Shown: positions 2,807-57,300 of the stretch, in pieces
How positions within the stretch are numbered: the first letter of the stretch is position 1
Layout of the letters: each line of letters opens with the position of its first letter
Assembly (NCBI GenBank): GCA_030272155.1
Contig: CP126201.1
Coordinates: 1,151,001-1,215,000, forward strand
DNA length: 64,000 nucleotides
From: Tetradesmus obliquus
Taxonomy: Eukaryota; Chlorophyta; Chlorophyceae; Sphaeropleales; Scenedesmaceae
Reading direction: 5' to 3'
Position numbers and translations under genes: made by a program
The notes under the pieces: model-generated
Seen by the model: the letters and a program-made list of their open reading frames with translations, nothing else
The model's database searches: none
Told to the model about the DNA's origin: nothing

Positions 2807-3540
2807 TTCATCAGCCCTAGCAGGCTGGGCCGCAGCTCGCCGCCCCGCTTGACACCCCTCGTGTACTCTTTGCTCCGGTTGGCCGCATCGTGAAGTTCAC
2901 CGCATCCCGCTCCGCCACTAGCCGCCACAGCTCAGCCAGATACATCCTGCAGCGGAGTGATGGCAACCGCCCCCATGTGACGATCCCACCGTCCGAAATA
3001 CACCAATCAGGATGCAGGACACATGCATCACATAGCCACATCACCCATGAATTCAAATTTGATAACAAGCTCAGCCCATCAGCCCCAGCAAGCTCGGCCG
3101 CGGCTTGCCGTCCCGCTTGGCGCCGCGCATGTACTCCTCACTCAGCTTGGCCGCATTCACTGCATCCTGCTCCGCCACCAGCCGCCGCCCTTCTGCCAGC
3201 AAATCTTGCACCGTGATTACCATGGGCTGAAAGACCGGCAGGCCCTCCTTGATCAAACCGCATGTGGCTTTTGGTAAAGTGCCGTAGGCACTACCTATTT
3301 TTAAGTCCGTGCCACCCAGTCAGCAACTACCTCAGCCCATCAACCCTAGCAAGCTCGGCCGCGGCTTGCCGTCCCGCTTGGCGCCGCGCATGTACATGTA
3401 CTCCTCACTCAGCTTGGCCGCATTCACTGCATCCTGCTCTGCCACCAGCCGCCGCCCTTCTGCCAGCAAATCCTGCACCGTGATTACCATGGGCTGAAAG
3501 ACCGGCAAGCCCTCCTTGATCGAACCGCATGTGGCTTTTG
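2807..3540 (-). repeat. Three extra downstream copies of the last exon of the Rubisco-activase-like gene
   Basis: The terminal exon (stop at 3599-3601) is followed by tandem copies whose stop codons lie at 3332-3334 and 3071-3073. A more decayed copy begins near 2810. The period is about 261-267 bp and includes flanking non-coding DNA, such as the repeated CACTACCTATTT stretch. The two nearer copies still encode LLAEGRRLVAEQDAVNAAKL and the LLGLMG C-terminus. They lack the start of the exon and its acceptor, so they are not complete alternative last exons. Confidence 0.85.
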
Positions 3541-3598
3541 GTAAAGTGCCATAGGCACTACCTATTTCTAAGTCCGTGCCACCCAGTCAGCAACTGCC

Positions 3599-54300: not shown

Positions 54301-57112
54301 TGCTCCATTGCATGTGCATGGCGCAGTCAATGTGGCTTGCACAGTAGCGGCCAACTTGGTGGTGGACAGGTGTGGGAGTGGACAGTAAATTCTCCCTCTC
54401 TTCGCGTGGATGCATTGTGCAGGGACTGCCCAGCACAGCAGCTGCAGCGCGGCACATCCTGCTGCTGCCGCCCTTACTGCTTCTGGCACTGTTTGTTACG
54501 CTGTCTTTTTGCAACATGTCTGCTGCTGCTGACATTTGATCAAGTGTATGACGCTGCCGCCGCTGCTGGTGCTGCTGGTGGTGCTGCTGCTGCTGCTGGT
54601 GGTGGTGCTGCTGCTGCTGCTGCTGCTGCTGCTGCTGCTGCTGCAGGTTTGGCCGCAAGTTCTTGCTCATTGAGGGCGGTATCCAACTGGTTGCCTGCGA
54701 GTTCATCGTTGGCGCGCTGATTGCCTCTAGCCTTGGGACTAGCGGCGTTGGCACGATTGAAACACCCAAGGCGAATGCGATGATTGCTTTCATCTGCATC
54801 TACATCGCAGGCTTTGCTTGGTCCTGGTGAGTCATCTCATTTCCATGTCAGCAACAATGCGTGTCACCATGTCATCAACAATGTGGTGGGTGCTGTGTTT
54901 GCGCTCACGTACATGCACGTTGTTTGCTGTACGTGCTCTGCGTGAGTAATTGTAATTTGTTGTGTCTGGGGTATGTTGCGCACGTGGTGCTGGTGACAGG
55001 GTGTAGGATGCTCTGTCTACAATGCATGGCAGTGCCCCACACCCTCTCACCGGCAGTACGCAGTGGCCACAGTCATAACTTGCATTATGTTACAAACTGC
55101 ACTCAATCAGGGAGTGGGAATCCCAATCAGGAGCCAACGAGAGACTCATAGGGAGTCGAGCGGCGGCCAATAACATGAGGTTACACCAAAGTCAGGAAGC
55201 TGTGAATGTTGACGCCCATCCTCCCTCTGCTGCTCACTTTGCTGAGCACGCTGCTGGTCATGTATGTATAGCTGCGCTGCCCTGTTCATCATATTGGTTT
55301 GTAACGTATGTTATATAACACAATGTGTATGTCTCTGCAGGGGCCCTCTGGGATGGCTGGTGCCTTCTGAAATCCAGCCTCTGGAGACACGTGCAGCAGG
55401 TGGGCGGCTGGCACACTAGCCAACAGCAATATCATGCTGACACACTAGCCAACAGAGATGACATGCTGACACACTAGCCAACAGAGATGATGTGATGGCA
55501 CACTAGCCAACAGAGATGACATGCTGGCACACTAGCCAACAGAAACAACATGCAGAGCTACGCACAGGCAGTGGTCGCTGTTTATCTGTCTGGACAGGAC
55601 CTGGCCGTGTGTGCACGGCCTACACTGGTGTTACGCTGTGTGCGCGCGCTGCATCTGTGGCTGTGAGCAGCCAGAGAGTAATCTGTCATGTTGAACAGCA
55701 GCTGGTCGTTGACCAGTGCACGCACAGCGAGCATTCGATCAACTGTAGTCTTGTGCACCGACATGCCGCTGCCGCCGCCGCTGCTGCTGCTGCTGCTGCT
55801 GCTGTGCTGCAGGTACTGGCGTGAACACCTTCTTCAACCTGCTGATGACCTTTGTGGTGGGCCAGACTTTCCTCTCCATGCTGTGCGCCTTGAAGTTCGG
55901 GGTGAGTGGTCACACTAGTAATAATAGTGACACAGGGGTCAGGTCGAGTTAACATCAGTGACGCTAGGCTTATGGTGCGCCAGACCTTCCTCTCCATGCT
56001 GTGCGCCATGAAGTTCGGGGTGAGTGGTGACACTAGCAATAATAGTGACACAGGGGTCAGGTCGAGTTAACATCAGTGACACTAGGCTTATGGTGGGCCA
56101 GACCTTCCTCTCCATGCTGTGCGCGATGAAGGTCGGGGTGAGTGGTGACACTAGTAATAATAGGTTGGGAATGGTGACACAGGGGTCAGGTCGATTTAAC
56201 ATCAGTGACACTAGGCTTATGGTGGGCCAGACCTTCCTCTCTATGCTGTGCGCGATGAAGGTCAGCGTGAGTGGTCACAAGTGACACTGGACTGTCACGG
56301 GTGACAATAGTGACACTGGGCTGGGACGGGTGACACTAGTGAAGTCATGTGGTGGCACACACCATGTCGTGCTGCCTGAAGTTCAGGGTGAATTGTCACA
56401 GGTGAATTGCATGCAGGCCATTGACGGCCATTGAGATGCCGCTGTCATATATTGCGCCATGATGTACAGGCTTGGCAGCATGAAGAACTGCTGCTGCTGC
56501 TGCCGCCGGGTCTTCTTCTTCTTTGGCAGCATCGGCCTCATCGTGATCCTCTTTTCAATCTTTTTCATTCCAGAGACCAAAGTCAACATGACAGTGATCA
56601 TGTTGTTATTATTGTTGCTGCTGCTTCTGCTGCTGCTGCCAGGTGTTCTTCTTCTTCGGCGGCATTGGTCTCATCGCCATCCTCTTCGCCATCTTCTTCA
56701 TCCCAGAAATCGACAGTGACACCCACACTGACATAAGGGTGCTTCTGATCTCATTTACCCACAGGTGTTCTTCTTCTTCGGCGGCATTGGGCTCATCGCC
56801 ATCCTCTTCGCAATCTTCTTCATCCCCGAGACCAAGAACGTGCCCATCGAAGAAATCGAGGAGCTGGTCGTGCACCGCCACTGGTTCTGGCGCCGCGTGG
56901 TGGCCGGAACAAAGGCCCCAGTCAATGCGCTGCGCTCAGGCAGTAGCATTGTGCAGATCCAGAGGGATGCAGCAGGCCGATCTAGGCTGTCTATGGTCAA
57001 TCCGGAGCAGGCCAAGCAGCTGGGAGCGCTGGATATGACCGGGGACACTGCCGCGCCGCGCAGCTACAGCGCGATGGGGCAGCGCCCTGATGTGGAGCAG
57101 CTGCGCCACTAA
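48356..57112 (+). CDS. Hexose/H+ symporter of the HUP/STP family (MFS)
   Basis: Exons: 48356-48474, 48809-48869, 49228-49272, 49782-49920, 50458-50546, 50784-50906, 51822-51936, 52352-52402, 52649-52800, 53485-53506, 53889-53997, 54647-54826, 55341-55399, 55813-55901, 56765-57112. All GT-AG, phases agree; 1701 nt gives 566 aa. Twelve hydrophobic segments are expected. Landmarks in order: [15 protein letters not shown] after TM1, [10 protein letters not shown] in loop 2-3, [39 protein letters not shown], a central loop, [20 protein letters not shown] with [47 protein letters not shown], and [12 protein letters not shown] at the end of TM12. This order matches Chlorella HUP1 and plant STP proteins, which import hexoses with protons at the plasma membrane. 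Exon 10 is only 22 nt. A long hydrophilic C-tail ends DVEQLRH. Confidence 0.93.
49088..49195 (+). repeat. Hexanucleotide (GCTGCC)n tract
   Basis: About seventeen GCTGCC units lie in intron 2 of the hexose transporter. They pass into CTG triplets and lead to the acceptor of the 15-codon exon 3 at 49228. Confidence 0.93.
49658..50350 (+). repeat. Copies of hexose transporter exon 4 edges
   Basis: A 5'-edge copy (AACGACCAAATCCTGCAACT) lies at about 49661-49705. Downstream of exon 4 (49782-49920), copies of [20 protein letters not shown] recur at about 49993-50062, 50139-50205 and 50279-50340. They degrade with distance. Confidence 0.85.
50930..52115 (+). repeat. Copies of hexose transporter exons 6 and 7 edges
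   Basis: A poor copy of the exon 6 end (FQLAATSTS region) lies at about 50975-51050. Upstream of exon 7, its start is imperfectly copied near 51620-51660 and 51712-51760. Downstream, its end is copied at 52030-52101 (GCTGCCTGACACGCCCAACT ... GAGCGCG/GTAAGC). Confidence 0.7.
52861..53380 (+). repeat. Copies of hexose transporter exon 9 3' edge and a following intronic triplication
   Basis: [16 protein letters not shown] is recopied at about 52870-52926 and 52994-53049; the first ends AAT/GTGAGT and the second AAC/GTGAGT. From 53050, an intron segment (GTGAGTTGAATGGTGTCGG, TAATTCACC, GGCTGGGCAGAA) repeats about three times at ~110-bp spacing. Confidence 0.87.
54030..54380 (+). repeat. Copies of hexose transporter exon 11 3' edge
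   Basis: GTGGTCATCCTGGTGGTCGA followed by CAG/GTGCGC is repeated at about 54050-54086. It recurs at about 54138-54174 with a GTGGGT donor, after an identical 90-bp intron block. A poorer copy of NVACTV lies near 54325-54370. Confidence 0.88.
55411..55555 (+). repeat. Minisatellite of ~29-31-bp units
   Basis: CACACTAGCCAACAG followed by a variable GATGACATGCTG-type stretch repeats five times in the intron after exon 13 of the hexose transporter. Confidence 0.88.
55978..56270 (+). repeat. Three copies of hexose transporter exon 14 3' edge
   Basis: Copies of [18 protein letters not shown] coding end at about 56020, 56138 and 56266, at ~118-128-bp spacing. The first two are followed by GTGAGT and the third by GTGAGT after GTCAGC. 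From the internal CAG to the donor the first copy is 36 nt and could enter in frame. Intron text with TAATAATAGTGACAC is duplicated along with them. Confidence 0.88.
56485..56715 (+). repeat. Two copies of the hexose transporter last-exon 5' edge
   Basis: Before the real last exon at 56765, copies of [15 protein letters not shown] occur at about 56510-56585 ([20 protein letters not shown]) and 56643-56712 (continuing to FFIPEI). The second has a CTGCCAG acceptor. Confidence 0.88.
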
Positions 57113-57300
57113 GCGCGAAACTTGTGGCTGGTGCGGGCTGTGAGTCAGCTGCTGCAGCGGCTTGTGGCTGCTGCTGTTTACATGCAGCTGGGTGTGCTGG
57201 ATGTGACTGGGGACACTGCCGCATCGCGCAGCTACAGCGCGATGGGGCAGCGCCCTGATGTGGAGCAGCTGCGCAGCACCTATGTATCTGGCTTCTGGCA
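57113..57300 (+). repeat. Post-stop copy of the hexose transporter 3' end
   Basis: 57185-57275 repeats the end of the last exon ([26 protein letters not shown]) after the stop at 57110-57112, but without the stop codon itself. Confidence 0.9.

Follow-up and report, generated by a model that had tools for sequence, protein, structure and literature searches.

Introns of the green alga Tetradesmus obliquus, and the DNA behind its stop codons, were found to hold partial copies of the edges of neighboring exons. The finding was made in a 64,000-nucleotide stretch of assembly GCA_030272155.1 (contig CP126201.1, C11:1151001-1215000), called the window here, within a genome of 104.66 Mb in 17 contigs, and was followed into genes elsewhere; the published T. 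obliquus genome is given as 108 Mb, with a GC content of 57% and a mean intron of 462 bp (PMC5966456). Copies upstream of an exon carry its 5' edge with AG, copies downstream carry its 3' edge with GT, and further copies follow the stop codon of last exons. We refer to these copies as decoys. Their best overall account, which we hold to be probable though not secure, is that local tandem duplications have repeatedly spanned exon boundaries, with decay and re-amplification from the exon-edge copies to follow.

Since exons must not be defined by their own repeats, exon models were built from solved homologues with a spliced aligner; an unsupervised gene finder was dropped, as it predicted exons everywhere. 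Several of the exons lean partly on putative homologue residues. Of the seven window genes noted at first, three were modelled (RCA on activase 4w5w, STP on the hexose transporter STP10, and PRP4 on human 3jcr_L); one further window gene, named by a Pfam match, carries a fasciclin domain, and two other window query sets had no Pfam match. Five genes from random stretches elsewhere were added, namely, SNU114, UBA3, glutamate-cysteine ligase (GCL), oligopeptidase B (OPB), and an ERK7-type kinase, giving eight genes with 71 exons and 63 introns (29 in the window and 34 elsewhere) on five contigs. The window genes are the following.

3605 to 7098, minus strand: exons of RCA, rubisco activase-like, 8 used of 9 aligned (alignment to activase 4w5w)
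39103 to 46592, plus strand: exons of PRP4, a U4/U6 snRNP WD40 protein and splicing factor (alignment to human 3jcr_L)
48356 to 57106, plus strand: STP10-like hexose transporter (STP), 15 coding exons in one consistent frame

The RCA exon left out was the 25-nt exon at 4175-4199. In PRP4, the fragments at 41667 and 41829 were not used, exon 42813-42982 was trimmed to 42940, and the last two fragments were merged for the intron and self-BLAST counts and for later analyses. OPB was used from 6688-6780 of stretch L016 onward, which dropped 8 of its 18 exons, and last-exon ends were placed by hand at the stop codon. With one uncertain donor and one uncertain acceptor excluded, and with an aligner that favors such sites, GT was present at 62/62 donors, with G at +5 in 61/62, and CAG at 61/62 acceptors. 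G stands at -4 in 44/62 acceptors of the eight modelled genes, and a CTG tract, which may help slippage, stands in front of several 3' splice sites.

The geometry was assessed with 40-nt exon-edge probes; to count as a match, a hit needed a score of 30 or more that also exceeded every one of 60 shuffles. The 66 window edges probed take in two artificial PRP4 edges, three stop-codon ends, and the outer ends of first aligned exons. Of these 66, 29 had a match toward the intron or the post-stop DNA, and 1 had a match on the opposite side. This bears out the geometry that an earlier note had read from the letters alone, in which 5' edges with AG lie upstream and 3' edges with GT lie downstream. 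The same note had met no clear exception; this was not confirmed, as the edge probes found no copies at STP exons 1, 2, 3, 5, 8, 10, 12, and 13 or at RCA exons 1 to 3. All three stop-codon ends in the window (RCA, PRP4, and STP) had post-stop copies, as the note had proposed for last exons, and outside the window so did GCL. The copies and arrays at the three loci are as follows.

3070 to 3779, minus strand: RCA last coding exon and two post-stop copies (period 267 bp, 2.7 copies, 93% matches)
4104 to 4231, minus strand: 3'-edge copy of RCA exon 4395-4556, lying in the intron after it
4613 to 4734, minus strand: 5'-edge copy with AG of RCA exon 4395-4556; homology ends about 6 nt beyond the splice site
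5506 to 5547, minus strand: 5'-edge copy with CAG of RCA exon 5364-5426
39352 to 39958, plus strand: three 3'-edge copies with GT of PRP4 exon 39103-39240
43384 to 44020, plus strand: five 3'-edge copies of PRP4 exon 43103-43241; several flank types, the outermost flank unrelated
45350 to 45736, plus strand: three 3'-edge copies of PRP4 exon 45078-45208
46038 to 46113, plus strand: 5'-edge copy, CTG tract plus CAG, of the PRP4 exon starting at 46173
46551 to 46931, plus strand: PRP4 coding end with stop, then further copies (period 109)
49976 to 50360, plus strand: 3'-edge copies of STP exon 49782-49920
52858 to 53056, plus strand: 3'-edge copies of STP exon 52649-52800 (period 125)
54048 to 54369, plus strand: three 3'-edge copies of STP exon 53889-53997; first two with period 88, outer two flanks unrelated
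55970 to 56279, plus strand: three 3'-edge copies of STP exon 55813-55901 (period 118-129)
56488 to 56707, plus strand: two 5'-edge copies of STP exon 56765-57106
57179 to 57274, plus strand: copy of the STP coding end, past the stop

Judged on sequence, the two RCA post-stop copies could serve as alternative last exons; at window 3074-3526 they remain open in frame. In STP, a TGCCGC hexamer repeat at 49084-49206 (20.5 copies, 96% matches) lies directly upstream of the small exon at 49228.

The frequency of exon-edge copies was determined by self-BLAST, which found them in 28/63 introns, 17/29 in the window and 11/34 elsewhere. Donor and acceptor edges were hit about equally (18/63 versus 16/63), both in the window (12/29 and 11/29) and in the five genes outside it (6/34 and 5/34), and no copies were detected by this method in UBA3 (6 introns) or ERK7 (5 introns). 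Therefore, the claim that almost every gene and boundary is affected was too strong. The probe search over the eight genes listed 59 copies at 32/124 edges and 28/71 exons, the PRP4 exon 5 donor and the RCA exon 8 acceptor being excluded from that list. Tandem Repeats Finder placed arrays with a unit of roughly 90 to 270 bp at exon edges in the window. The copies of neighboring exons in introns and post-stop DNA are real, as are their geometry and their spread through the genome. Introns with copies were longer (median, 566 nt; n = 28) than those without (median, 295 nt; n = 35; P = 9e-8).

Local direct repeats made up 30.5% of the window, in which direct repeat pairs outnumbered inverted ones 131 to 5. 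In 20 ten-kilobase stretches at fixed round positions across all 17 contigs, such repeats averaged 15.1% (range, 0 to 59%). The highest local repeat coverage, 0.59, belonged to L021 (C16:1000001-1010000), where long open coding pieces at 6709-9800 on the plus strand have what we take to be the look of a hAT-type transposase. Another stretch, L022 (C17:1000001-1010000), holds a 4,282-bp unit head to tail, with copies at about 598, 4880, and 9162 and identical translated pieces; its coding sequence is presumably transposase-like. In the window itself, a long GGGCTGGGTGAC-type repeat at 62795-63238 has an open plus-strand frame that reads as Gly-Leu-Gly-Asp repeats.

The copies are local. When seven array queries were searched against the whole genome, five matched their own locus only, in a search that skips simple repeats; one also matched an exon of a hexose-transporter paralogue (82% over 67 nt), and one also matched many places, by coordinates through CTG tracts only. 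Apart from this paralogue exon and these tracts, none of the seven queries had dispersed copies such as an introner or mobile element would leave. A paralogue source was considered for the GCL decoys and rejected, the one GCL exon searched having a single match in the genome. The hexose-transporter paralogue (L002 1158-1769, on C11 at about 55 kb) runs in one open frame throughout against window 52649-53997. It lacks introns where STP has them after exons 9 and 10, and intron content therefore differs between the paralogues.

We also weighed the possibility that the copies are an artefact of assembly or read collapse, for which one SNU114 repeat pair, 100% identical over 196 nt, could be cited. 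However, the exon parts of the copies vary in identity from 0.78 to 1.00, with a mean of 0.92, and in most pairs the flanks have diverged or show no relationship; moreover, the assembly consists of only 17 contigs for 104.7 Mb. The spread in identity makes an artefact very improbable.

Under the account that we prefer, local tandem duplications with units mostly of 90 to 250 bp would arise often in this genome. Those falling within exons or splitting them would be purged by selection, while those running from exon into intron, or the reverse, would leave the working exon intact and deposit a partial copy with its splice site in the intron. The spare copies would then decay largely unconstrained, the real exon and its splice signal staying conserved, and later exchange or slippage among surviving exon-edge copies would re-amplify units into arrays. 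Since the intron flank would be lost sooner than the exon edge and its signal, old or re-amplified arrays would come to end at the splice site. This explains the side on which copies lie, their locality, the structure of the arrays, the near-neutral recent changes described below, and the association with longer introns. With respect to array structure, flank homology past the splice site was shared with another copy by 20/27 inner decoys but by only 6/32 outermost ones, so that duplication of the whole unit would fit most inner copies and not most outermost ones; array growth through re-amplification of an older pair would produce this difference. A more sensitive alignment related the outer flank to the spacer in 14/32 cases (the other 18/32 had a shuffle P of >0.02), and an initial reading, in which homology stopped abruptly in about two thirds of copies, was softened accordingly. 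After de-duplication, 36/48 events with an intronic junction spanned an exon edge, where random placement expects 15.1.

Three results weigh against this account in its simplest form, in which decoys decay neutrally. First, the edge-spanning share of 75% exceeded the 43% expected from a simulation of position-blind duplication, decay, and detection bias, in which the exon rate was fixed at 0.2 and ages ran up to 0.30; events in one array are not independent. Part of the excess over random placement reflects detection bias, given that conservation preserves the exon partner. Second, the outermost homology ended -3 to +12 nt from the splice site at 15/27 edges, a class picked after the histogram of ends had been viewed (the 27 edges are 28 minus the downstream edge of RCA intron 7). 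The remaining ends included none at 12 to 33 nt, ten at at least 34 nt, and two well inside the exon. In neutral simulations, which model single duplications and not arrays, this class held 7 to 9% of ends at younger ages and 13% at older ages; copies within an array are, moreover, not independent of one another. Simulated values neared the observed share only when the exon parts of decoys evolved at 0.15 to 0.3 of the neutral rate, and the same simulation still put 16 to 21% of ends in the 12-to-33-nt class, which is empty in the data. Third, decoys compared with exons gave a dN of 0.059 and a dS of 0.280, and the dN/dS ratio of 0.21 (bootstrap, 0.16 to 0.28; 32 edges) lay below the 0.34 to 0.48 simulated for neutral decoys beside a constrained exon; it was 0.19 in the window (22 edges) and 0.29 in genes outside it (10 edges). 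Gene conversion or exchange from the present exon alone should not, by reasoning only, lower this ratio. The earlier proposal of simple tandem duplication with selection for the intact exon thus survives as the best account but fails, if combined with neutral decay, on these three points; by itself it does not explain the low dN/dS ratio or part of the splice-site boundary. Taken together, the edge excess, the boundary, and the low ratio indicate that exon-edge copies either persist longer than their intronic flanks or arise already cut at the splice site. Splice-limited birth, a period of function, and exchange between diverged haplotypes are candidates for the residue.

Birth at the splice site would follow if the exon were copied from a variable inner point exactly up to the splice site, either through a break linked to transcription or splicing or through template switching at GTGAG and CAG motifs, and if the copy were inserted 50 to 100 nt away with an unrelated spacer. 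The two-peaked distribution of outermost ends is what such copying predicts, as is the spacer that in 18/32 cases was not significantly related to the outer flank. Outer decoys also scored between real and random intronic splice sites for bases off the exon edge, in a set that includes carried-along flanks. On the other hand, the 14/32 related outer flanks include two splice-bounded ones (the donor copies of STP exons 4 and 7), and at least part of the boundary must therefore be old, decayed duplication. Microhomology alone should moreover end many copies inside exons, and only 2/50 do so. We regard birth at the splice site as unlikely; a little less likely again is the wider claim that a process recognizing splice junctions copies exon edges, so that introns of this lineage grow outward by splicing- or transcription-linked duplication.

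The low dN/dS ratio could alternatively mean that many decoys are, or once were, working alternative exon ends under selection. Only 3 stops occurred in 59 copies, and splice dinucleotides were retained in 44/54 copies that reach the splice point, with GT in 28/35 donor copies and AG in 16/19 acceptor copies; 5 further copies of the 59 stop short of it. However, such retention needs no selection: by arithmetic, it is about what a neutral divergence of 6 to 12% per site leaves, and neutral loss can explain it. Changes private to decoys fell at codon positions 1, 2, and 3 in the numbers 20, 19, and 36 (43 nonsynonymous and 32 synonymous), with positions 1 and 2 equal within one change, and recent decoy changes are thus near neutral, if somewhat enriched at position 3. 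The real exons, with private changes numbering 9, 2, and 25, are constrained. One PRP4 decoy reads straight into a stop, and spacings of 164, 130, 115, 172, and 110 nt are not multiples of three, although others, such as 141, are. Strong coding constraint on decoys was not kept as an explanation in view of the near-neutral private changes, and working exon ends on this scale appear improbable to us. Duplication across exon boundaries, with later re-amplification, stays the preferred account.

If the pattern is general in this lineage, introns could lengthen by serial exon-edge duplication, the genome would be filled with close copies of real splice sites, and gene prediction in the group would suffer. 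RNA sequencing could then directly test both the choice between real and decoy splice sites and the origin of intron growth in mutation.

The kind of process is already known, both as duplication in intron evolution and as repeats that cross exon boundaries. Among titles and abstracts of open-licence PMC papers, no report was found of this pattern or mechanism in green algae, nor any description of copies at this density or of arrays bounded by the splice site. In human paralogues, internal tandem repeats at exon-intron boundaries, able to alter splicing, were described by De Grassi and Ciccarelli in 2009; of the primate-specific genes located in duplicated regions, about 7% have variable repeats (PMC2812944). 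The repeats here share the crossing of exon-intron boundaries but, unlike those, affect 28/63 introns of eight conserved genes and lie on the intron side. A study by Zhuo et al. from 2007 reportedly concerns human introns from tandem arrays and is, by its title only, a likely precedent. In Daphnia, as described in PMC3443670, repair of staggered breaks leaves gained introns bordered by short direct repeats; here, too, a duplicated edge borders an inserted spacer, but the Daphnia repeats are short and surround new introns, whereas ours consist of 25 to 120 nt of exon edge beside an existing intron. The same source treats tandem genomic duplication as a known force in intron evolution and gain and sets out the AGGT model, in which an exonic AGGT segment is duplicated and a new intron arises between the copies (PMC3443670). 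Both involve short tandem duplications within genes and a duplicated segment that contains splice signals; here, however, existing introns receive the copies. The model predicts an exon-tail copy followed by AG at the 3' end of the intron, whereas GT followed 28/35 donor copies, and those displayed lay mid-intron. The pattern differs from AGGT intron gain because no intron is made and because the copies, as exon tail then GT or as AG then exon head, stand mid-intron with the splice site outward.

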